Notes under the pieces: generated by a model
Database searches by the model: none
The model's input: only the letters and a program-made list of their open reading frames with translations
What the model was told of the DNA's origin: nothing
Source: Desulfobacteraceae bacterium
GTDB lineage: Bacteria; Desulfobacterota; Desulfobacteria; Desulfobacterales; Desulfosalsimonadaceae
Assembly (NCBI GenBank): GCA_014237465.1
Contig: JABZFM010000025.1
Coordinates: 1-55,469 of the forward strand
Direction: 5' to 3'
Length of the DNA stretch: 55,469 bases
Made by a program: the position numbers and the translations under genes
Part shown: positions 3,076-16,765 of the stretch, one piece after another
Layout of the letters: each line of letters starts with the position of its first letter
Position numbering within the stretch: position 1 is the first letter of the stretch

Positions 3076-5493
3076 TCAATTTTCAGCTTGAACCATCCCT
3101 CGCTGCTCAAGCTGAACGATTTTCGGAGTTAAGAAAATCAACAGCTCAAGGTTGCTATTGTCGACTTTTTTACTCTTAAACAACCAGCCTATCATGGGGA
3201 TTTCTTTTAATATCGGAAATCCGCTTTCCTGCATGGTTTCAGAAATTTTGGCCACTCCGCCAATCACAACCGTATCCCCATCATCAACGAGAAGCAAAGT
3301 TTCAGCTTCATTGGTTGACGTAATTGGATAGCCTAATGGTTCCGTAAATCCAATGATTTCATTTTTAGTGGTTAAAACATGCAATGAAATCCGGTGGTCA
3401 GGGGTGACATGGGGCGTAACTTCAAGCAGCAAATCGACATCTTCAAAATTTATTTCCACCGACCCATCTTCGATGGTCGGATACGGAATCCGCTGACCCT
3501 GCTTAATCATTGCTTTTTGGTTATCCAGGGTTAAAATTTTGGGCGATGAAATAATTTTACCTTGACCTTCCTGTTCCATGGTGCGAAGCGCCGCATCAAG
3601 TACTATCGGGGTTCCCCACGCCTGCAGCCGAGTGAAGTTTACGCCAAGAGTGGTTGCCCCTTGCATACCATTTTCCGCTTGATCTGCATAAAAAGCAGTA
3701 CCTGGAAGATTCATTGCAAAATTATATGAATACTGGCCATCCAGGCCGGATTTGTAAATATCCTCGCCACTGACTGACCAGGCGACACCAAATTCACGAC
3801 CGAAATCGTCATTTACTTCTACAATTCTGGCCTCGATGAGAACCTGCGGGGTGACTTTGTCAATCTGGGAAATTATTTCTCTGGCCTTACGAAGCTTGGC
3901 CCGGGTATCGGTAATGATAATCTGATTGTTTCGGGCATCAACGGTTATGTTTCCCCGTTCTTTGGTTAATATCTCTTGAATATGCGGCAGAATTTCACTG
4001 TGAGCATTCGCATAATTGATGGGAATATATTCAGTTACAAGGGGTTCCAATGTTTTTTCCTGTTCCCTGCGTTCCCGAATGGCTTCAATTTTTTTCTGCT
4101 GAGCCACCTCTTCCGCGCTTAAGGTTGCAACGGTTGCGATGCGTATAATATCATCCTGCTCGACTTTACCGAGTTGATTCATCTGTAAAATCAAATCAAG
4201 TACCTGGTCCCAGGGGGCCGGCTTTTCAAGCGAAATGGTAACTTCCCCGGTCACATTTTTGTCAACTGCGTAATTCTTTCCACTGACCTGCTGCAGAATT
4301 CGAAAAACATTTTTTATATCTGTTTTATAAAAATCAAGCGCAATTTTCTGACCGGTATACTCTTTCTTGCCACCTAACATATCTTTGTATGTATCTTCAA
4401 CGACAGCCTGTTCTTTTGCCTGCGCTTCCGGAACCTGAACAGAATAAGTTACTTCTTCTAAAACCTGCTGCCAGGGCGGCAAATTTGCTGATTCAAATGG
4501 CCGAGGACCAATTGAAGATGGATCAAAAGTTATTGTTAACAGATTATCTTCGGCAACCGGCCGGTAGGGTACCCACTCCCGGAGCTCAACGATAAGGTCT
4601 GTCGCATTTTTTATATCTGTTGCCTGAATCGGGCTGATGCGGTCAACAGCGCTTTCAAACCGTGTCGTAATTAAAGGTCGGTGGCGACGGTATTCTGGAA
4701 GCCGGCTGTTATAAACTCTGACTTTTAATGTTCGTTCAGCTATTTTTTGGATGTCAAATTCCACCGGAAAATCCGTACCAACGATAATCATTGATTTTCC
4801 GGACTCCTGGGTTGAAAAATCGATCCGGTTAATAACGGCTGCTTCTTTATTTACTTCTGAAGTGACAATCTTTTCCGATTCCTCTTGTTCACCAACAACT
4901 GCTTTTTTTTCTGTTGTTTTTTCCTCTGTCACTTCAGAGGAGCCGGCAACAACCGGTGTATTTAAAGAACTTTCTTCTTTGACCGCCGACATTTCGCTTG
5001 ATTCAATAGCCTGATTTTCTTCAGTTGAGACCGTACTCGGGCGCAGAAATACGATATTAAGATTTGTACCTTCCTTCTTCACATCATAAGGAAGATCTTC
5101 CTTTAATCCTATTTCAAGCCGGGTGTTTTTCTGGTCTGATGACAGAGAAGGAATTATTGTCTTTATTATTTCACTGTCCGGCCTAAGTTCAGGAGGAATT
5201 TCTCCAAGCGTTGTTTCCGGAAACAATAATATCACTCCCAGCGGATCATGCTGTTTGACGGAAGTATAATTCAGTTGTTTGTTGGCACTGATAATCACAC
5301 TTTCAGAATCAGCTGAAACAACTGTATTTATGCCGGTTATTATCTTTTGTGGATCCGCTTTCACCGATTCTGCATCTTTTTTTCCCGACATGGACGCGCA
5401 ACCGGCAGAAAGCAATAAAAGGATCGACAAAAATAAACAACAAATCGACCGCCCGAAATTTTTTCCCGATATCATGCGACTACAATCATACAT
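3076..5493 (-). CDS. pilQ: Type IV pilus secretin PilQ
   Basis: Outer-membrane secretin through which the type IV pilus is extruded. The 805-residue protein starts with a lipoprotein signal (LLLLSAGC, Cys32). Two AMIN-like peptidoglycan-binding regions follow (about 60-150 and 220-325), separated by a low-complexity Glu/Ser/Lys linker. Next come an STN/N0 domain (about 380-450, GQKIALDFYKTDIKNVFRIL), an N1 secretin_N domain (about 487-545) and the C-terminal secretin barrel (about 550-795, VLIEARIVEVNDDFGREFGV and GGVAKISE). The length is normal for PilQ. The first ATG is chosen because GGAGAG sits seven bases before it. It is the last pil gene of pilMNOPQ, 15 bp after pilP. Confidence 0.95.
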   Translation of the reverse strand: MYDCSRMISGKNFGRSICCLFLSILLLLSAGCASMSGKKDAESVKADPQKIITGINTVVSADSESVIISANKQLNYTSVKQHDPLGVILLFPETTLGEIPPELRPDSEIIKTIIPSLSSDQKNTRLEIGLKEDLPYDVKKEGTNLNIVFLRPSTVSTEENQAIESSEMSAVKEESSLNTPVVAGSSEVTEEKTTEKKAVVGEQEESEKIVTSEVNKEAAVINRIDFSTQESGKSMIIVGTDFPVEFDIQKIAERTLKVRVYNSRLPEYRRHRPLITTRFESAVDRISPIQATDIKNATDLIVELREWVPYRPVAEDNLLTITFDPSSIGPRPFESANLPPWQQVLEEVTYSVQVPEAQAKEQAVVEDTYKDMLGGKKEYTGQKIALDFYKTDIKNVFRILQQVSGKNYAVDKNVTGEVTISLEKPAPWDQVLDLILQMNQLGKVEQDDIIRIATVATLSAEEVAQQKKIEAIRERREQEKTLEPLVTEYIPINYANAHSEILPHIQEILTKERGNITVDARNNQIIITDTRAKLRKAREIISQIDKVTPQVLIEARIVEVNDDFGREFGVAWSVSGEDIYKSGLDGQYSYNFAMNLPGTAFYADQAENGMQGATTLGVNFTRLQAWGTPIVLDAALRTMEQEGQGKIISSPKILTLDNQKAMIKQGQRIPYPTIEDGSVEINFEDVDLLLEVTPHVTPDHRISLHVLTTKNEIIGFTEPLGYPITSTNEAETLLLVDDGDTVVIGGVAKISETMQESGFPILKEIPMIGWLFKSKKVDNSNLELLIFLTPKIVQLEQRGMVQAEN

Positions 5494-5508
5494 GTTTAAC
5501 TCTCCAGG

Positions 5509-6231
5509 TTATTGCTGAAGTTTCATTTCTCTTTCACGTACAGAGATTTTCCCAAAAACGTCTAAATACTTTTCTTCAACCATTATTCGATCTTTAAATA
5601 TTCTGGAAACCTGACCGCCTTTATTACCAATGTATGTACCTTCATTGATAACATATCCTTTGCCGGAAACCTCCTGAACAAGGGCTCTTGTTTTTGTCGG
5701 AGTCCGTAAAACTGCGGTCAGTCTCAGCTGACTCAAGTCAATTTTTTCCAAAGGAGTCCGGGGGACACGTCGCTTTAGCTTAGCCTTTTCATCGATTGTA
5801 ACTTCAGGTTCCGGCTTCCGGAGAAAGGGTTCAAAGGGATCAACACGTCCCTTTCGGCTGTAAAAACGTTCTTTCTTACCGATTAACGCGGATACTTCTT
5901 CTCTGATCGCGGCTTCAGACATTTCTTCAGACACATCACCGCCATTCTCCGGCCCTCCGGTTGCTGGAATTTGAACCTGAGTATCCAGCTGAGTTTCCGG
6001 CTGAGTATCCGGCAGAATTTTCGGCACTGCGGCGATCTTTATTTCAGCTTCTTTAACTGCAAAGCCTGAAGAAACCGAATCAGAAGTTTTCACAATTTTT
6101 TCAGGCCGTACAATTTTCACATGATTACTGATATATCGTACCGCATCAGATGCATCCGCATCTTGACCATGCCCTGAAAAACAAACTCCCAAAAAAAGAA
6201 TAGATATTACACAACTATAAATTTTACACAT
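5509..6231 (-). CDS. pilP: Type IV pilus assembly protein PilP
   Basis: PilP links the inner-membrane PilN/PilO complex to the N0 domain of the PilQ secretin in the periplasm. The 240-residue protein has an N-terminal hydrophobic segment (about 4-18) that acts as a signal; a Cys at residue 17 could be lipidated, but the lipobox (FLGVC) is not canonical. A long disordered linker follows, rich in Pro, Gln and Thr, with a short QPETQLDTQVQ repeat. The C-terminal PilP beta-domain (about 155-235) is clear: LEKIDLSQLRLTAVLRT, ALVQEVSGKGYVINEGTYIG and GGQVSRI. It lies between pilO and pilQ with short spacers, and no internal terminator is visible. Confidence 0.93.
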   Translation of the reverse strand: MCKIYSCVISILFLGVCFSGHGQDADASDAVRYISNHVKIVRPEKIVKTSDSVSSGFAVKEAEIKIAAVPKILPDTQPETQLDTQVQIPATGGPENGGDVSEEMSEAAIREEVSALIGKKERFYSRKGRVDPFEPFLRKPEPEVTIDEKAKLKRRVPRTPLEKIDLSQLRLTAVLRTPTKTRALVQEVSGKGYVINEGTYIGNKGGQVSRIFKDRIMVEEKYLDVFGKISVREREMKLQQ

Positions 6232-6244
6232 AATTTATCTTCTT

Positions 6245-6913
6245 TTATTTCTTTTTCTTTTTTTTGCCTTTCCCCTTAGCATCGTCATCGGATGCAGGCG
6301 GGGGGGATTCCACAAATTTATATGTTTCAGCAGTGCATGCTATATTTAAGCCAGACCCAGGCACAGATCCCTTTTTTCCCTTTTGGGAAATTTGTATATC
6401 AAACTTTTTAATATTAACAATTCTGGACATTCCAGCCAGTTGATCAAAAAAAACACCCAGGTCATGATAGGAACCGGATAAATTCATTGTTACAGGAAGT
6501 TCCGCATAAAACTCTTTCATTGTTTCGGGTTCGGGTTTAAATAGCAAAAAAGTAAGACCGGCATCTTTTCCAACCTGAGAAATACCTGTCAGCAGAGAAG
6601 GAACCTCATCGGTTACCGGCAGGGCTTTTGCGACAACATTAAACTTTGCCTGGGCTGCTTCCAGTTTTTTTTGAAATTTAGCATATTGTTGAGCACTTTT
6701 TTTTGTTTCTTTTAACTTTTCCTCCTGCTGAGCAATTTCTTTTTTTAATTTATTTATGTCTTCATATTTCGGCATATACAGAAAATATACAAAGACACCA
6801 ACGATCAATGCAACCAACACGCAGCATATAATAATTCTCTGAACTTTTGTAAGTTCACTAATTTGTTTAATCAGCGGCTCAATAGAATTTAATGAGATAT
6901 CAATTTTTTTCAT
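6245..6913 (-). CDS. pilO: Type IV pilus assembly protein PilO
   Basis: Inner-membrane alignment subcomplex protein that pairs with PilN. The 222-residue protein has a short cytoplasmic N-terminus, one transmembrane helix (about 25-47, IIICCVLVALIVGVFVYFLY), a periplasmic coiled coil (about 52-100, rich in Lys/Glu/Gln) and a ferredoxin-like PilO domain (GISQVGKDAGLTFLLFKPEPE, AELPVTMNLSGSYHDLGVFF). An unusual poly-lysine tail (KGKGKKKKKK) ends the protein. The gene lies 13 bp before pilP and 24 bp after pilN, in the standard M-N-O-P-Q order. Confidence 0.93.
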   Translation of the reverse strand: MKKIDISLNSIEPLIKQISELTKVQRIIICCVLVALIVGVFVYFLYMPKYEDINKLKKEIAQQEEKLKETKKSAQQYAKFQKKLEAAQAKFNVVAKALPVTDEVPSLLTGISQVGKDAGLTFLLFKPEPETMKEFYAELPVTMNLSGSYHDLGVFFDQLAGMSRIVNIKKFDIQISQKGKKGSVPGSGLNIACTAETYKFVESPPPASDDDAKGKGKKKKKK

Positions 6914-6937
6914 TTCTTCTTTCGCCTTTTCCTTGCC

Positions 6938-7525
6938 TTAATTAGGCTTTCCAGCCGATTTTGATTCAGAGTCTATTGTTTTCGGTACAGGCTTTTTGCA
7001 TTTAATATTAAACTGTTTCATATCAACATTGTATTTATTCACTTGTTGAGAGCTTGCCAGATCAACATCCGAAAACAAGCCGGACCGTTCAAGACGAAGC
7101 ATAAATACTGCAACTGTTTCATTATCCAGAGCGACACCTTCAAGCGTCAGATTTGCATCGTCAGAAATGAGCCGTGTTAACTGCATGCGCCCGGGAATTA
7201 TCGTTTCCGTCATTTTTGCCAGAAGCTTTGGCGGTTTTTCCCGATACTCTTTAAGCTGATTAACGATTTCAATCTGTTTATTGAGTGTATCAAGTTTTTT
7301 CTTTATTTCCTCCACCTGCCTGGCTTTTTCTTCATAAATGGCGACTTCTTTTTTTAAGTTGTCCAGGTTGTTTGACAGCTTTTCTTCTCTCGAACTCAAA
7401 TAGCTATTGAACACACCTAACACAACAATTAAAAGGACAAAAGACAATAGAAAAATTGATACCTGTTTTCGAATATTTTCTTTGGATCTTGCTGCCCGGT
7501 AGGGTAATAAATTGATACGTATCAT
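6938..7525 (-). CDS. pilN: Type IV pilus assembly protein PilN
   Basis: PilN binds cytoplasmic PilM through its conserved N-terminal peptide and pairs with PilO in the inner membrane. The 195-residue protein begins MIRINLLPYRAARSK, which carries the INLLP motif that docks on PilM. A transmembrane helix follows (about 24-44), then a coiled coil (about 48-105) and a small periplasmic ferredoxin-like domain (about 110-180). Its ATG overlaps the pilM stop in an ATGA arrangement, indicating translational coupling. Confidence 0.94.
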   Translation of the reverse strand: MIRINLLPYRAARSKENIRKQVSIFLLSFVLLIVVLGVFNSYLSSREEKLSNNLDNLKKEVAIYEEKARQVEEIKKKLDTLNKQIEIVNQLKEYREKPPKLLAKMTETIIPGRMQLTRLISDDANLTLEGVALDNETVAVFMLRLERSGLFSDVDLASSQQVNKYNVDMKQFNIKCKKPVPKTIDSESKSAGKPN

Positions 7526-8577
7526 TTGTCGTCCACTCTTCTGATTGCAAGCCCCGTCGAAATAGCGGCCTGAGGTGCTAGCTGTTTCAGATAAGCATCA
7601 TCCAACTGCTCACTGGTTATATTTATTTTCTCAAAGGGATTTATTATTTTTACTTCAGCCGACGACTGCATGGCCAGCAGCTCTCTGAATTCTTTGATAT
7701 TCGCAGCTCCCCCACTTAAAACAATCTGCTTGATCCGTTCATCCGGGTTGGTTGAATAGAAAAAATCAAGCGCACGCCGGATTTCATCACACCAGTCAGA
7801 GACGCTGGATGAGATAATTTCCCTGAGTTCTTCAGTTGATAGTTTATCCGGTTTATCACTGTGCATGATATCTTCAGCTTCAGTCATCGTGCAGTTCGCG
7901 ATTGAAACAATCCGTTGATAAATCTGGTTACAGCCGAGAGACACATCACGCATAAAAACCGATGTATTGTTTTTCAAAATATTGACCGATGTTTTACTCG
8001 CGCCGATATCAATCAGCGCAACATTTTCTCCCTGAGCACCGTAATTGAATTCATATATATTCTGTAGTGCAAATGCATCGATATCAATGATACATAAATT
8101 AAGGCCCGCCATATCGATAAGATTGATATAGTCGTTGACCATATCTTTTTTCGCGGCAACCAGCAGAACATTCATCTGGTTCGGGTTATGCTCGGCTTCT
8201 CCCAGGATCTGGAAATCAAGATTAACATCATTTATATCAAAAGGGATATACTGCTCGGCCTCAAAGTTGATGGACTCATGAAGCTGATCTTCCGGCATAT
8301 TCTGTATAGTGATATTCTTGACGATGACAGAATAACCGCCAATGGAAATCGCAACGTTATGCTGCTTTATGTTATAATTCTGGTAAAGTTGACGAATAGC
8401 ATTCGCCACATTCTGGTGGTCCTTGACAACCCCTTCTTCTATCGCCCCGGGGTCAATGTCAATGGTTCCAAACTTTTTTAGAGTCCATCCTTTTTTGGCC
8501 TCCGTGACTTCCGCCACCTTAATAGTACGGGATCCGATATCCAGTCCGACAACTTCATTTTTGGGTCCAAATAGCAT
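7522..8577 (-). CDS. pilM: Type IV pilus assembly ATPase-like protein PilM
   Basis: Actin/FtsA-like cytoplasmic protein of the pilus alignment complex. Nucleotide-binding motifs are visible: VVGLDIGSRTIKVAEV (phosphate 1), ALIDIGASKTSVNIL (phosphate 2) and IVLSGGAANIKEF (adenosine motif). The frame is open upstream to 8622, but the better start is the ATG at 8577 (MLFGPKNEVVGLDIG). It has a GGTGGA ribosome site and gives 352 residues, the usual PilM size. It is the first gene of pilMNOPQ, with a long AT-rich upstream region that probably holds the operon promoter. Confidence 0.94.
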   Translation of the reverse strand: MLFGPKNEVVGLDIGSRTIKVAEVTEAKKGWTLKKFGTIDIDPGAIEEGVVKDHQNVANAIRQLYQNYNIKQHNVAISIGGYSVIVKNITIQNMPEDQLHESINFEAEQYIPFDINDVNLDFQILGEAEHNPNQMNVLLVAAKKDMVNDYINLIDMAGLNLCIIDIDAFALQNIYEFNYGAQGENVALIDIGASKTSVNILKNNTSVFMRDVSLGCNQIYQRIVSIANCTMTEAEDIMHSDKPDKLSTEELREIISSSVSDWCDEIRRALDFFYSTNPDERIKQIVLSGGAANIKEFRELLAMQSSAEVKIINPFEKINITSEQLDDAYLKQLAPQAAISTGLAIRRVDDK

Positions 8578-9659
8578 GATTACTATCCACCATAAATTGA
8601 AATAAATTGATGACCGACGCACAACCTCCCAGTCAAACCCGGAACCGTTGATGCTGAAAGGACTGTTCCTAAACTATAAACTACTGAAATAATAATACCT
8701 GAAATTGAATTGCAATAGAAAGTGATATTTTCACAGATAAAAAGATATTTTTGTTTAAAAAGATGGGCTTTTTGTTTCAAGGCACTTACCTAAACTGGCC
8801 GCAGTAGAGACAGCCTTTATTTTTAAATATTAATGCCAGATAAATACGCTAAAGCAAGCGACAATCAAGTTGAGAAGCAGAGCTTGTCATCCACATACGG
8901 CTATAACCTTACGTTAAATTATTGTTATGTCAAGGAAATTATAAAAAAAAAAATTAATGGAATTTATTTTGTGCCTCATATCGAATAAAAACCACTATAT
9001 ATTGTGCATTGCTTATATCAACTACACTGAATTGAATTGAATAAGGGACATAGAATTTTCTAATGTACCGGTTCAGAATAGCCTTTTTCAGTGTAAAGAT
9101 TTTTATCAAATAGGATACATGGGTGTATGCACAGGATAGTTTTTCTGTTGTAAATGGTATTTTAATAATTTTCGAGTCCCTAAGCAGTCTATCATTTCTG
9201 TTTTAAATATTGTTCGGTTCAGATTAAATCGAGCTACTCTTGCGTTTTGATAATATATTTGCAAGAGAAATGCCAATAATGAGGCTTTTTATTTTTTGAT
9301 AATATTTTTATGAATAATATCAGCTTTAGCACAGGAAACGGACCACTGATTTTGAAACGACACCTCATTTCAAGACAAATTTTTTTTAAAATCAGATACT
9401 TATGGTTTTAAATAGGATTATTTAAGGCATAAAAAATGTTTATTGTGATAGGCCCGGAAAAAATAAAAAAATGGTTTTAATGGGATTGTATATAAAATAA
9501 TAACTTTTAATGCGGGCAAAAGTGTGCCTTTTTGTGTACATTTATATGAAAAAGTATAATCTGGACGGGGAAAAATGAAGTGTGCCAGATGTGATGTTTT
9601 TGGGGGTATTATTTTTTCATAACCGAACAATCTGCCCCATCAGAATTAAGGCAAAAACA
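8578..9659. other. 1.1 kb AT-rich intergenic region upstream of pilM
   Basis: No convincing gene is seen in this gap between pilM and the HD-GYP regulator, both on the minus strand. Short open frames exist (for example 9418-9630, minus) but lack a ribosome site, domain signal or sensible composition. The stretch is strongly AT-rich with many A/T runs. The clearest structure is a CTCTTGC/GCAAGAG inverted repeat at 9237-9243 and 9261-9267. It should contain the pilM promoter; no confident sigma-54 or sigma-70 box pair could be fixed. Confidence 0.5.
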
Positions 9660-11228
9660 CTACTCCAGCAACCGGTATATCTGCTCAAACCTGCCTTCAG
9701 CCTGCAAAGATAAAAAGAGATCCACAATCCGGGGGTCAAATTGTATTCCCCTTCCTGAGCTGATTATTCCAAGGACTTCGCCTTCGGGCATTTCTTTTCT
9801 GTAAGCCCTGTCTGACACCATGGCATCATAAACATCCGCCACTGAAAGAATCCTGGCCAGCAGCGGGATTTTATCCCCCTGCAGACCATCCGGATATCCT
9901 GACCCGTCAAACCATTCGTGGTGATGCCGGACAATTTTTTTCTCCCGGTCCCAGAGGCCCAGCTGGCCGATGATGCTTTCCCCGATCAGCGGGTGTTCCT
10001 TGATTTTTTCATATTCGGCATCCGTCAGCCGCCCGGGCTTTAAAAGGATATCATCCCGGATACCGATTTTACCGATATCGTGGAGACGACCGGCAAAATC
10101 AAGCACATCAATCTCTTCTTTCGAACATCCGTAAGCCATGGCAATAATAATTGCTGTATCTTTTACCCGGCTCGAATGCTCTTTGGTATAGGCGTCTCTG
10201 GCTTCAACCGTTTTGACAAACGCAGAAAGGGTTGAGAATAAATTTTCATAAATGTTTTCATACAGAGCAAGATTTTCAACCAGGTAGGCCGCCTGTTGAA
10301 TCATAAACGATAGATAATACAGGTCTTTTTCTGTAAATGCTTTTTTTTCGGTTGTTGTCAGTGCAATTAAAACCCCGAACACTTTATCTCGGATTTTAAG
10401 GGGAATTCCCATCAATGAACGAATCTGGTCCGGCAGGTTTTGATTTGTATTCTCGACAATCATCAGAGGCGTTGCATCAATTGCGATTTCCTTGATCAAA
10501 TCACTTAAAGCGGAATTAAAAATCTCATGTTTAATTTCCTCTCCACACTCCGGGTTCTCTGAATTGTCAATATTGCAGCGGTCAAAGCTTGTCAGTTCAA
10601 ACGGGGAATCAAACGAATTGCTGACTGCATAAAAAACCGCCCGGCTGGCAGGGGTAATCAATGTCGCCATTTCAGCAATATGATACAACACTTCCGAGCC
10701 GGTATTTAACGACATCAACTCGGTCATAATCCTGTTTAAAACCCGAAGTTCCTCGACCTTGAAAACCAGTTCACGGTTTAATTCTTCGAGCCGTTTTTTA
10801 CTCTCCAGTTCTTTATTGAGTAAAATATTTTTAATGAACAACTCCCGCTCCCGCAAAACACGCTGGAGACAAATGGTCATCTGCTCCAGGTTTACGGGCT
10901 TTACCAAAAAATCGACCACACCGTTTTTCAATGTTTGCAGGGTGTTATCCAGCGAAGGGTAACCGGTCATTATGACAACAGGAATCGAGTTATCATAATT
11001 CCGCAAGTATTCGGCAAGCTCAAGGCCGTCCATCTCGGGCATGTTAATGTCAGTAAAACAACAGTCAATGACATGGTTTGCATCTTCAAAAGTCTTTACT
11101 GCTTCCCGTCCGTTTCTTGCAGTGAGAACTTGATACCCCAGGTTTTGAAAATGCTCACTGGCAATCTCGAGAATCGTTTCCTCATCATCGACAAATAAAA
11201 TTGTCTTTTGGGTTTCCATTTCAATCAT
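9660..11228 (-). CDS. Response regulator with GAF and HD-GYP (c-di-GMP phosphodiesterase) domains
   Basis: A 522-residue cytoplasmic signalling protein. An N-terminal receiver domain (about 6-125) keeps the acidic pair (VDDEE), the phospho-acceptor Asp in CFTDINMPEMDGLE, the Thr in VVIMTGYPS and the Lys in DFLVKPV. A coiled-coil linker follows (about 125-170), then a GAF-like domain (about 175-325) and a complete HD-GYP domain (about 345-515). The latter has RLHDIGKIGI, EHPLIGE, HHHEWFDGSGYPDGL and ADVYDAM. HD-GYP domains hydrolyse cyclic di-GMP, and intact metal ligands suggest activity. No histidine kinase is adjacent. Proximity to pilMNOPQ hints at a role in surface motility, which is inference only. 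The start could also be the ATG at 11219. Confidence 0.9.
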   Translation of the reverse strand: MIEMETQKTILFVDDEETILEIASEHFQNLGYQVLTARNGREAVKTFEDANHVIDCCFTDINMPEMDGLELAEYLRNYDNSIPVVIMTGYPSLDNTLQTLKNGVVDFLVKPVNLEQMTICLQRVLRERELFIKNILLNKELESKKRLEELNRELVFKVEELRVLNRIMTELMSLNTGSEVLYHIAEMATLITPASRAVFYAVSNSFDSPFELTSFDRCNIDNSENPECGEEIKHEIFNSALSDLIKEIAIDATPLMIVENTNQNLPDQIRSLMGIPLKIRDKVFGVLIALTTTEKKAFTEKDLYYLSFMIQQAAYLVENLALYENIYENLFSTLSAFVKTVEARDAYTKEHSSRVKDTAIIIAMAYGCSKEEIDVLDFAGRLHDIGKIGIRDDILLKPGRLTDAEYEKIKEHPLIGESIIGQLGLWDREKKIVRHHHEWFDGSGYPDGLQGDKIPLLARILSVADVYDAMVSDRAYRKEMPEGEVLGIISSGRGIQFDPRIVDLFLSLQAEGRFEQIYRLLE

Positions 11229-12742: not shown

Positions 12743-12782
12743 AAAACAGCGAGTTCAGTATGACAACTGAACTCGCCGTTTT
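12743..12782. terminator. Bidirectional terminator between lysA and the PEPCK-like gene
   Basis: GCGAGTTCAGT at 12749-12759 pairs with ACTGAACTCGC at 12766-12776 around a six-base loop. A run of A precedes it and a run of T follows. It lies between the convergent ends of lysA and the PEPCK-like gene, so it can serve both. Confidence 0.8.
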
Positions 12783-12835: not shown

Positions 12836-14476
12836 CTAGCTGATGGATAACCCAAAATCCTCCAGATCCAGTTTGTCATCAATGGAAATGATTTGTGACA
12901 GCATGGTGCGCATTTCTTCGGGGATAACATCCTCATACTGTTCAAAATGCTTCATAAACTCCGCAACCAGACGAATGGCCCGCAGTTCATATTCACCGGC
13001 ATCTTCAGCGGCCTCTCTCGGATTTAAAATATTTGCGGGCACCACATCACCCGGCGCTTTTTTAGGAATTTCAAACTGAAACACCGGGTCGGCTTCAAAT
13101 TCCATTTTTGAAAGTTCCCCGGAAATGGCCACTTTAACCAATGCCCGGGTGTGCTCAATTTTGATCCGTTCACCCTTAAAGCTTGGCTCCCCGCTCCACC
13201 CGGTATTCACCAGCCAGCAATTGATATTGTATTTAATAATATTTTCCATCAATCGCTTGGCATATGCGTATGCCGGCAATGCAATCATTGTGTCCCCAAA
13301 AGCAACACTAAACAAGACCTGGGCCTCAAACTCGCCGGATTCCACCTGATTGAATTTTGATGTATATGCTGACAAAAATGCATAAACCGCCTGTTCAGGG
13401 GTCAGCCGGGCAATGGGGGGAAGTACGCCATATGCGTCGCAGGTCAGCAAAAAAAGATTTTGGGGGTGATTAAACAACCCTTCACGATAAGCATGGGGAA
13501 TATGGGATATGGGATAGATGCACCGGGTATTCTCTGTCAGACTGTCATCTTTTAAATCAACCCGCCGGGTATCCATGTCAATGGCAACATTTTCCAGAAT
13601 GGAGCCGAACTTTCGCGTACATTCATAGATAAAAGGCTGTTTTTCTTTTTCAATATTCATAATCTTGGCGTAGCCGCCCCATTCAAGATTAAACAGACCT
13701 TTCTCGCTCCAGGCATGTGCATGGTCCCCGATCAAACTTCGCTCAGGATCAACCGCCAGCGTTGATTTACCCGTATCCTCCCGACCTAAAAATATTGCCA
13801 CATCGCCATCTTTGCCCACATTGGCCGAACAGCGCATACAGAAAACAGATTCCGGCATCAGATAACTAGCAAGGGTAAACACCACCTGCCGGAGTTCACC
13901 GGCATAACTGGAACCACCCAACAGAACAAGCTTCTGACTCAGGTTGATAATAACAAATGAAGTTGAATGGGTCCCATCGAGTTCCGGAATCGCATTAAAA
14001 CCGGGAATATGAATAATCGTAAATTCCGGCGCAAATGTTTCAAGTTTTTTCAAATCATCCACCTGAAAAAACATATTACGGACAAACAGACTGTGCCATG
14101 CTGTTTCCGTTACGATCCGGATGGGCATCTGATATTCTTCCTCACTCCCGACCAGGCAGTCCTGAACATACGCTTCCTTATTATGCATATAGGCCATCAT
14201 GCGATGAAACAATGTATTAAAATGATTTTCCGATAATTCATTTTTGTCCTCGCTCCAGAAAATCTTTTTTTCACTGTCCAGGTCTTTGACAAAAAATTTA
14301 TCTTTGGGCGGCACTTCTGCATAATGACCGGTCCGAACAACGACCGGTCCCAAATGCGCAATCTGACCTTCACGGTTGTTCACGATCTCTTCATACAAAA
14401 CAGAAGTGGGCAGATTTCGATAGATACGTCTCAAATGCTTACGCCCGAAATATTCAAGGTCCAGACTTTCAACCAT
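12836..14476 (-). CDS. pckA: PEP carboxykinase (ATP)-family protein with altered active site
   Basis: Full-length homologue (546 residues) of ATP-dependent phosphoenolpyruvate carboxykinase, alignable throughout with E. coli PckA: ITEVAWQ-like VTETAWHSLFVRNMF, CSANVGKDGDVAIF, TENTRCIYPI, DAYGVLPPIARL and NTGWSG. Several catalytic positions differ. PEP-binding Arg65 is Val55 (VPPKDKF instead of RSPKDK). Lys212/Lys213 are Arg196/Gln197. Metal ligand His232 is Arg215 (MRCSANVG). Metal ligand Asp269 is His252 (IGDHAHAW). The Walker A lysine and following Ser are kept (Lys237, Ser238 in EDTGKS), as are Asp251 and Arg318. It may therefore bind a nucleotide without doing the PEPCK reaction, or use other ligands. 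The ATG at 14476 is chosen because AAGGAG lies five bases upstream. The family is certain; the activity is doubtful. Confidence 0.85.
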   Translation of the reverse strand: MVESLDLEYFGRKHLRRIYRNLPTSVLYEEIVNNREGQIAHLGPVVVRTGHYAEVPPKDKFFVKDLDSEKKIFWSEDKNELSENHFNTLFHRMMAYMHNKEAYVQDCLVGSEEEYQMPIRIVTETAWHSLFVRNMFFQVDDLKKLETFAPEFTIIHIPGFNAIPELDGTHSTSFVIINLSQKLVLLGGSSYAGELRQVVFTLASYLMPESVFCMRCSANVGKDGDVAIFLGREDTGKSTLAVDPERSLIGDHAHAWSEKGLFNLEWGGYAKIMNIEKEKQPFIYECTRKFGSILENVAIDMDTRRVDLKDDSLTENTRCIYPISHIPHAYREGLFNHPQNLFLLTCDAYGVLPPIARLTPEQAVYAFLSAYTSKFNQVESGEFEAQVLFSVAFGDTMIALPAYAYAKRLMENIIKYNINCWLVNTGWSGEPSFKGERIKIEHTRALVKVAISGELSKMEFEADPVFQFEIPKKAPGDVVPANILNPREAAEDAGEYELRAIRLVAEFMKHFEQYEDVIPEEMRTMLSQIISIDDKLDLEDFGLSIS

Positions 14477-14575
14477 GATCACTCCTTTATTTTCAATAGG
14501 TTAAGAACAAATTGATCGCGCATCCGATTGTCTTAATCAGAGTCGCCACTAAAATATTTTCAAGCTTAAAACATT

Positions 14576-16765
14576 TTAAATGCTTCCTGTTGATGACAGT
14601 GCATAAATCACCAGCTTCTGCATCATTTTTTCCTTAGCGGAGCCCGGATTATCAAGATGCAGTCTTTCAAGATACGGTTTGGCGGTTTCCGGGACGGACA
14701 TGATCGTCATTGCCTTACCCAGGCTTGAGACCTTGCTCAACCCTTCCGTCATCTGCGCTTTCAGCCATTTCAGGGACTTTCCAATAACCAGCTCTTCATC
14801 TGTAAAATCCGAACCAAACGGGAATGGCTCAAAAAAGCCTTTTTCCTTAAATGGCGTAATTTCGTCTTCAAGCCGCTGGGGATAATTATTTCTGAACTGG
14901 TCAGCAATGGTATAATCCGATGGAATTTTTCTATATTTTTTTGCTGTTTCCAGCAATTCATCCTGAAACCGGGAATCTGTTATGTTAAGCAACTGCGCAA
15001 TAATTTCCTTGTCCATTTTTCCCCGTAAATCCGCAATACCGTATTCCGTAATCACAAAATCCCGTAAATGCCGGGGAATCGTTGTGTGACCATAATTAAA
15101 AACAATATTCGAGGCTGCGGACTTTCCAGCCCCCCTTACCCCCTTGCACATGAGTATGGATCGTCCATCCGGGAGCGCATGGGCCTGGGACACAAAATTG
15201 TACTGCCCGCCAACACCACTGACGACCTGCCCGCTTTCCAATCCATCGGATACGACTGCACCGGAAAGGGTCACCATCAAGCACGCATTGACAAACCGGC
15301 CTTCGCGTCGCTGGAGGACCTTGAGTTCTTCACTGTAGTACGGATTATTGCCATAAAGCTGATTCACGTTCAGGACGCTGGTCATAAATATCTTTTTGCG
15401 TTCTTCGTCGCTCATATCATTGAGCATTTTATAGAACCCTTCAGGCCCCAGGAAGAATCCACCGTGAATTAAAATATCATTCTTCAGCAGTGTCCCCAGG
15501 CATTGGGCAACAACCTGGTCCATATTCTTCGGATCTGATAAATCCGCAGGGATCTCTTTTTCACCGTTCTTAATGACACTGTTTTCAAAGGACAGCCCTT
15601 CTTTAAATATGCCATATTCAGTTAAAAAAGCAAAATCTTCAGCAGTTAAAACCGGCTTGACAGCCCCTTCTTCAATAAGAAACTCCAACGTTTTCGGCGT
15701 TACTTCATCCGTAATCTTTTTTTCATTTAACAGGCGTTGAAGGGGAACATTGTTATACGTCTTCCGCTTGACAACCCCGCTTTCCAGCAAGTACAGGTAG
15801 CCATCCACCAGCATCTCAGTGGAACCTGTGATGCCTTCATCAAAAATATCCACCCCGCCGATCCGCTCAATCACATTGCCAGATTTACCCAATATGCCCG
15901 TATCATTCAAAAACTTCTTGTATTCGGCGTTTTGTGTATGGCGCATCCGAAGCCCATAACATAACGCATCCCCCAGTGATCCAATACCGATCTGCAGCGT
16001 GCCGCCATCTTTAATCAATGTACTTGCGTGAAGTCCGATCATATAATCCGGTGTGGTGATCGACATTTTCGGCGCTCCAAAAAGGCGGGTGGTATATTCC
16101 GGCGCATCAACAATGGCATCAAACTCATCTCCTTTCACCACTGCATCCCCGTACATGAATGGAAGGTTCTGGTTGACCTGGGCAATGATCGCAATTTTCC
16201 GTCCCTGTTTTTCCAGTTCCCGCATAGCCGGGGTAATATCCAAAGACACTTCCGGATTACAGCTCATGCTGTAAAGGGTTTCCCCGTTAATTTCTTTTTT
16301 ACACACCATCTGGGCAACCACATTAATCCCGTTATCTATAGAGTCCCGCCAGGCATGCGTATAATTGGAACTGATATAATTCATCTGGGTATGGTCAACA
16401 TTGATATAAGACCCTGCTTTTGCATAAAACTCTCTGAGCTCAAAATTTTCCGGGAGTGTTCCTTTTCGAAGATCCAGCATATAATCCAGCTCAACATATC
16501 CATCAAACAGTCTTTCCACAAACGGCCCCAAAAACTTTTGCTCAAGATCACTTGCCCCTGAAGGCTTTTCAAGCGACAGCGCGGTACAGAAAATAAGTTG
16601 CATTGACGGGTCTTTTTTGGCCCTTCTGTATAATGCGTTTGCAAACTGATTCGGCTTTCCGAGACCCAGGGGCATTCCAAAAATAATTTTTTTCCCCACC
16701 TTGCTGATTACGTCATCCACACATTTTTCCACATCCTGATAATATACCGGCCTTTTTCCTTCCAT
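14576..16765 (-). CDS. Acetyl-CoA hydrolase/CoA-transferase family protein, long form
   Basis: Member of the acetyl-CoA hydrolase/transferase family (acetate, succinate, butyrate or 4-hydroxybutyrate CoA-transferases). At 729 residues it is clearly longer than the usual 430-510; the extra length lies mainly in the N-terminal half and between the two lobes. The N-terminal lobe holds GIGSLGDALCYGLR and STEMLVDGYLYLLESGVV, the region where family members carry the catalytic Glu. The C-terminal lobe has GVGGQYNFVSQAHALPDGRS, TTIPRHLRDFVITEYGIADL and RGKMDKEIIAQLLNI. It probably moves CoA between short acids in anaerobic acid metabolism; the substrate is not readable. The start has a GGAGG site eight bases upstream. 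Its neighbours are the PEPCK-like gene and a GlcF-like gene, with 350 bp of leader. Confidence 0.82.
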   Translation of the reverse strand: MEGKRPVYYQDVEKCVDDVISKVGKKIIFGMPLGLGKPNQFANALYRRAKKDPSMQLIFCTALSLEKPSGASDLEQKFLGPFVERLFDGYVELDYMLDLRKGTLPENFELREFYAKAGSYINVDHTQMNYISSNYTHAWRDSIDNGINVVAQMVCKKEINGETLYSMSCNPEVSLDITPAMRELEKQGRKIAIIAQVNQNLPFMYGDAVVKGDEFDAIVDAPEYTTRLFGAPKMSITTPDYMIGLHASTLIKDGGTLQIGIGSLGDALCYGLRMRHTQNAEYKKFLNDTGILGKSGNVIERIGGVDIFDEGITGSTEMLVDGYLYLLESGVVKRKTYNNVPLQRLLNEKKITDEVTPKTLEFLIEEGAVKPVLTAEDFAFLTEYGIFKEGLSFENSVIKNGEKEIPADLSDPKNMDQVVAQCLGTLLKNDILIHGGFFLGPEGFYKMLNDMSDEERKKIFMTSVLNVNQLYGNNPYYSEELKVLQRREGRFVNACLMVTLSGAVVSDGLESGQVVSGVGGQYNFVSQAHALPDGRSILMCKGVRGAGKSAASNIVFNYGHTTIPRHLRDFVITEYGIADLRGKMDKEIIAQLLNITDSRFQDELLETAKKYRKIPSDYTIADQFRNNYPQRLEDEITPFKEKGFFEPFPFGSDFTDEELVIGKSLKWLKAQMTEGLSKVSSLGKAMTIMSVPETAKPYLERLHLDNPGSAKEKMMQKLVIYALSSTGSI

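Follow-up and report, generated by a model that had tools for sequence, protein, structure and literature searches.

A non-canonical ATP-PEPCK homologue with a replaced metal site, encoded beside a family I CoA-transferase in Desulfobacterales

Phosphoenolpyruvate carboxykinase (PEPCK) is a classic gluconeogenic metalloenzyme of central carbon metabolism. In the ATP-dependent enzyme of E. coli, PckA, we take Lys213, His232 and Asp269 to be the metal ligands, Arg65 to be the substrate (oxaloacetate) arginine and residues 389-413 to be the lid; solved structures of E. coli mutants with R65Q, K213S, S250A, K254S and D269N in their titles show only that these sites were studied. HPr kinase/phosphatase is grouped with PEPCK in PMC1079889 and provides an example of protein-kinase activity for this fold. 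No description of the group of homologues analyzed here was found in the open-access papers searched, PMC4370629 and PMC1079889 among them.

The window, the whole 55,469-nucleotide stretch of contig JABZFM010000025.1 from a Desulfobacteraceae bacterium (GCA_014237465.1), encodes a member of this group, here referred to as PCK-B. The initial annotation described it as an intact PckA homologue, conserved over its full length, with a good reading frame and ribosome site, and our analysis agrees. The open frame spans 12836-14482 on the minus strand, and the likely start is the ATG at 14476; the GTG start of the listed 548-aa frame falls inside the ribosome site. Residue names (V55, R196 and so on) follow the resulting 546-aa numbering, and positions in the C-terminal tail and of pLDDT follow the 548-aa numbering.

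12836..14476, minus strand: PCK-B, a non-canonical ATP-PEPCK homologue of 546 aa (open frame, PF01293, Foldseek match to 1xkv)
14482..14489, minus strand: ribosome-binding site of PCK-B, TAAAGGAG, with a 5-nt spacer to the ATG at 14476

Full-length homology was evident from PF01293 (548.5 bits, cut-off 26.5) and from the phmmer match to 1j3b (E 4e-146). An AlphaFold2 model built on 35 sequences (pLDDT 82.3, pTM 0.85) had the Thermus ATP-PEPCK 1xkv as its best Foldseek match (E 3.8e-62, 43% identity, TM 0.87), and the predicted fold is that of PEPCK. PCK-B matched six NCBIfam PEPCK models, each below its cut-off, among them TIGR00224 (503.8, cut-off 590.05) and NF006820 (608.1, cut-off 636). 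Codon usage (0.71-0.79 for ribosomal genes, 0.67-0.77 for window genes) gave no sign of high PCK-B expression or abundance.

The pocket of PCK-B is altered in a selective manner. Val55 stands at the position of E. coli Arg65, Arg196 and Gln197 at Lys212 and Lys213, Arg215 at His232 and His252 at Asp269, exactly as first read from the sequence; the P-loop lysine, Asp251 and Arg318 (E. coli Asp268 and Arg333) and the arginine at the Arg449 position are all kept. The motifs around these sites align gap-free with the Thermus, Actinobacillus and E. coli enzymes, so the canonical residues are not merely shifted. PCK-B thus carries Gln, Arg and His in place of the three metal ligands.

13886..13888, minus strand: codon of Gln197, equivalent to E. 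coli Lys213 (Gln in 28/34 clade rows)
13832..13834, minus strand: codon of Arg215, equivalent to E. coli His232 (Arg in 33/34 clade rows)
13763..13786, minus strand: P-loop GREDTGKS (Lys in 34/34 clade rows; an Arg specific to the clade at the E. coli 249 position in 33/34)
13721..13723, minus strand: codon of His252, equivalent to E. coli Asp269 (His in 33/34 clade rows)

Homologues were searched for and residue-checked in 60 relatives and then in 291 genomes of the class. The substitutions were found in 31 of the 291 genomes and in three relatives from the set of 60 (G004, G009, G011); a further genome, G295, holds a fragment without the pocket columns. In a tree of 79 rows, the 34 non-canonical rows formed one group with support of 100, which was still 100/100 after masking 54 pocket and lid columns. 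The group is nested within canonical PEPCKs when rooted at the midpoint or on E. coli, and support for its sister group is 55/9. Tree and column counts use 34 clade rows, excluding L058 (cut on the N side), L116 (a fragment) and the named duplicates L150-L162, L167 and L201; the rows are related, many of them congeners, and are unweighted, so that residue counts do not represent independent events.

Comparison of the 34 clade rows with 45 canonical rows identified 6 of 520 columns that are conserved in both groups with a differing residue, namely H232R, L249R, S258A, D269H, H382A and A389S (canonical residue first). Four of these (232, 249, 258 and 269) lie at the metal site or P-loop, and the 45 canonical rows uniformly carry His232, Leu249, Asp269 and Lys213. 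K254, R333 and R449 are each present in 34/34 clade rows, and D268 and Y207 in 33/34. The earlier proposal that a substrate and metal set has changed while the nucleotide site is retained extends to the clade. Its expectation of a clade sharing Val, Gln, Arg and His was borne out in part: Arg at 232 and His at 269 (33/34 each) and Gln at 213 (28/34) are shared, but Arg65 persists in 5 of 33 rows readable at this site, and Lys212 in 13/34. Arg65 and the lid (389-413) vary within the clade. The rows with Arg65, a feature beyond the initial annotation, comprise 5 of the 9 readable rows outside the window's family and none inside it, and because of this retention the loss of Arg65 looks later than the change of the metal site. 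A second clade copy in G280 (L103) has Gln for Arg at 232 and no adjoining CoA-transferase.

In our samples the clade was seen only in the window's order (Desulfobacterales in taxon-titled records). The best 80 named loci included 15 of the PCK-B clade, titled Desulfobacteraceae, Desulfobacterales, Desulfosarcinaceae, Desulfococcus or Desulfonema, with L201 titled only Deltaproteobacteria; the other 65 were canonical save for Thr455 to Ser in some. Spread to other orders was not seen in the samples used. In a search of 395 genomes, 45 had a match at E 1e-200 or better, and the 29 loci checked among these besides the window, three of them from the same order, were all canonical. A fragment on contig C87 of G249 that matched the clade profile proved by sequence overlap to be the start of that genome's canonical copy.

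PCK-B is under purifying selection. Its dN/dS between the window and six relatives was 0.052-0.078, compared with 0.043-0.063 for the canonical copy and 0.042-0.067 for the neighboring CoA-transferase over four relatives, although several dS values exceed 1.5 and are rough. No stops occurred within the PCK-B clade matches of the 291-genome search. The substitutions were initially held to be coordinated rather than random decay, and a single clade, fixed new residues and low dN/dS (0.05-0.08) are in line with that view. Between the window and L038 (G005), the dS of PCK-B was 0.42, about one third of that for the canonical copy (1.50) and the transferase (1.33); codon usage gives no explanation for this low value.

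PF01293 matched twice in the window genome, at PCK-B itself and at a canonical copy on contig C46 (L001), the second pckA that had been anticipated. The latter matches E. coli at 34 of 37 tabulated sites, including all pocket sites, and differs at 318, 355 and 407. Eight genomes at least 90% complete have PCK-B as their sole PF01293 match (G004, G010, G024, G041, G059, G101, G150 and G280), all of them drafts and G004 with 7% contamination. Because these lack any other PF01293 match, PCK-B is probably not simply a partner or subunit of canonical PEPCK, and we disfavor that candidate. A further, distant group of ATP-PEPCKs with a canonical pocket (clade C: L017, L045, L055, L070 and others) replaces the usual canonical copy in part of the window's family (e.g., genera g4 and g8) and occurs elsewhere in the order.

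Directly upstream of PCK-B, on the same strand, lies a gene for a CoA-transferase, an association that the initial annotation did not include.

14576..16765, minus strand: family I CoA-transferase of 729 aa, upstream partner of PCK-B (PF13336, similarity to 3gk7/3eh7)
12743..12782, no strand assigned: hairpin of 17 pairs between PCK-B and a convergent PLP-decarboxylase gene, terminator-like on both strands

The protein matches PF13336 (127.4 bits), and its best solved relative is the 4-hydroxybutyrate CoA-transferase 3gk7. It has the SGVGGQ loop, and in an alignment with the 4-hydroxybutyrate CoA-transferase 3eh7 its Glu317 (codon 15815-15817) falls on the TEM motif, the glutamate of which is catalytic in family I enzymes. 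Glu317 is present in 24/24 linked-clade transferase rows and 27/27 others, and also in G063, which stands outside those counts. The model of the transferase was poor (mean pLDDT 53.8). Relative to 3eh7 it carries ~100 additional residues in the 335-482 region, and a part of this segment (~351-420) is among the better modeled regions (pLDDT 82-90).

Among clade loci for which upstream sequence exists, 32 of 34 have a CoA-transferase gene directly before PCK-B on its strand. The corresponding count for canonical loci is 0 of 43, and in 39 of these the upstream sequence spans 300 bp or more. The 34 loci comprise the window locus, 31 fetched clade loci whose upstream sequence is 300 bp or longer (29 of these with the transferase), and G166 and G002, where PCK-B is split over contigs with its N-terminal piece beside the transferase (L117 and L058 being the respective far pieces); L049 and L116 had too little upstream sequence to be counted. 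The exceptions are the second G280 copy and G226, where about 1 Mb separates the two genes. In the overlapping set of named loci, the pairing holds for at least 14 of the 15 clade loci among the best 80 (the fifteenth, L158, has 230 bp upstream) and for 0 of 65 canonical loci. All of these counts take in related genomes and not independent events. The two genes are separated by 99 bp in the window and, among the fetched loci, by 7-238 bp in 28; the trimmed PCK-B start of L067 overlaps the transferase and was probably placed too early. No terminator-like site was found between the two genes on their strand, and since the hairpin follows PCK-B, they probably form one transcript, bearing in mind a scan background of 8 sites found against 4.5 expected.

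In a search with a threshold of E 1e-30, 30 of 31 PCK-B genomes yielded a transferase match; in the exception, G028, the contig ends at that point. Conversely, no residue-checked PCK-B is present in 51 of the 81 genomes that yielded a transferase, although in G249 the contig ends 139 bp past the transferase. The linked transferases form one clade of 25 rows (support 100), consisting of 22 linked rows plus G226, G249 and G063. The G063 member (L245) has a very long branch, and its genome lacks any PCK match; this transferase was perhaps free to drift after loss of PCK-B. Transferases from genomes without PCK-B have the same motifs and few fixed differences, and 7 of 27 such loci directly adjoin a LysA/NspC-like decarboxylase gene (G044, G048, G055, G071, G076, G164 and G220). 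The same type of gene follows PCK-B in the window and is found in 18/35 fetched clade loci. Because of these shared motifs and adjacencies, transferase plus decarboxylase looks like the locus without PCK-B, and PCK-B like an add-on. Near the divergent out-of-family members (L052, L057, L101, L102 and L105), no other of 16 compared window proteins was kept, with the exception of HD-GYP-type matches (27-30%) in L102 and L105. Elsewhere in the window, at 3076-8622 and 9660-11228, a gene run that we take to be PilMNOPQ-like adjoins an HD-domain response regulator (Pfam), and much of this run recurs next to the decarboxylase gene in related loci.

Row comparison also revealed a C-terminal extension that had not been noted before.

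12839..12919, minus strand: last 27 aa of PCK-B, a C-terminal tail specific to the clade and a candidate docking peptide

In each of the 32 clade rows whose C-terminus is intact, the position of window residue 521 is followed by 25-28 further residues. A conserved helix of PEEMR type comes first, then an acidic segment, and the tail closes with a few hydrophobic residues, which read DFGLSIS in the window and GFSM or GFSI in many of the other clade rows. Canonical rows have 7-23 apparently unrelated residues at this position. The tail is poorly modeled (pLDDT <50 at 535-548); it is a candidate docking peptide.

For the role of PCK-B, the initial annotation listed a pseudoenzyme, a regulator or a different kinase-type reaction. 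Taken together, our observations lead us to a reading that we would accept about as readily as doubt: PCK-B would be an ATP-binding protein of PEPCK descent that has ceased to make PEP and instead partners the CoA-transferase, probably as a regulator. Mg-ATP binding is likely because the residues that grip ATP (the P-loop lysine and the Asp268, Arg333 and Arg449 positions) are kept, and decarboxylation of oxaloacetate by the window protein is unlikely because the metal ligands and, in the window, Arg65 are absent. With the catalytic divalent-metal site replaced by an Arg/Gln/His set and the oxaloacetate arginine and lid sequence lost, Arg215 may occupy the former place of the metal, since the old set (neutral Lys, neutral His, negative Asp, 2+ metal) and the new one (Gln, positive Arg, neutral His) have equal net charge. 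A new job with the CoA-transferase is probable because the two genes nearly always adjoin. PCK-B would then most likely be a nucleotide-responsive accessory or regulatory subunit that docks on the transferase through its tail, thereby tying CoA transfer to the level of ATP. We infer ATP binding, loss of PEPCK activity, physical contact and regulation of the transferase alike; the separated genes of G226, the second copy of G280 and the G063 transferase without a PCK match count against such a partnership.

The complete set of phosphoryl-holding residues (K254 and R333 in 34/34 rows, D268 in 33/34) exceeds what a pure scaffold would need and would fit an active kinase or ATPase equally well. 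We therefore give a substantial share, though a tentative one, to PCK-B being a new enzyme that transfers the ATP gamma-phosphate without Mn2+ or another metal to a small molecule or protein of the transferase's pathway, for example a hydroxy- or carboxylic acid or the CoA-transferase itself. Positions 232, 249 and 269 are fixed to new residues (33/34 each) with no drift, Arg at 232 could substitute for the charge of the metal, and the PEPCK kinase group includes a protein kinase, HPr kinase/phosphatase (PMC1079889). However, the lid and Arg65 vary within the clade, unlike the active site of an enzyme with a fixed substrate, and this proposal is without a candidate substrate. An accessory nucleotide-sensing role is favored because related transferases exist without PCK-B in other genomes. 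A two-part, ATP-driven acyl-activating machine, in which PCK-B would move the gamma-phosphate metal-free via Arg215, Gln197 and His252, perhaps through phospho-His252, and the transferase would make acyl-CoA from the activated acid, seems a long shot. It is similarly improbable that PCK-B has remained a PEPCK, perhaps one that is slow or uses its metal differently: homology is full-length (43% identity with the Thermus enzyme in the structure alignment), L032 keeps both K212 and K213 and R65 persists in 5/33 rows, but three metal-ligand positions are altered together, the score falls short of all six NCBIfam models and the window genome (G000) keeps a canonical copy. The missing catalytic residues might suggest a decaying paralogue, or an assembly artefact or sequencing error, which is hardly credible given an intact frame, clade matches without stops, a dN/dS of 0.05-0.08 and changes residue-checked in 31/291 genomes, and we reject it on these grounds.

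Our interest in PCK-B rests on two metal-ligand positions and one P-loop position that are fixed anew while the ATP grip is kept. If the accessory-partner reading is true, the clade would illustrate how a PEPCK can come to assist or regulate an enzyme of acyl-CoA chemistry in anaerobes. These genes score far over the cut-off of the Pfam PEPCK model, and metabolic models that use Pfam would then wrongly credit PEPCK activity, most plainly in the eight near-complete genomes with PCK-B as sole match.

Compared with ATP-PEPCK (EC 4.1.1.49, PF01293), PCK-B shares the fold, the P-loop lysine and the Asp268, Arg333 and Arg449 positions, but has residues 213, 232 and 269 replaced, Arg65 mostly lost, a changed lid, an extra tail and a CoA-transferase pairing. 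The canonical PEPCK of the window genome belongs to the same family, whereas it falls on a different branch of the tree and has no CoA-transferase within 1.4 kb on either side. HPr kinase/phosphatase is a kinase of the PEPCK group, a likeness to PCK-B drawn from the grouping in PMC1079889 and not from a sequence match, and PCK-B is plainly nearer to ATP-PEPCK. The window transferase shares the C-terminal PF13336 domain, SGVGGQ loop and TEM glutamate with the 4-hydroxybutyrate CoA-transferases 3gk7 and 3eh7; it scores below all four NCBIfam cut-offs matched, with no PF02550 match reported, and differs from these enzymes in its length (729 aa vs. 434-448) and extra segments.
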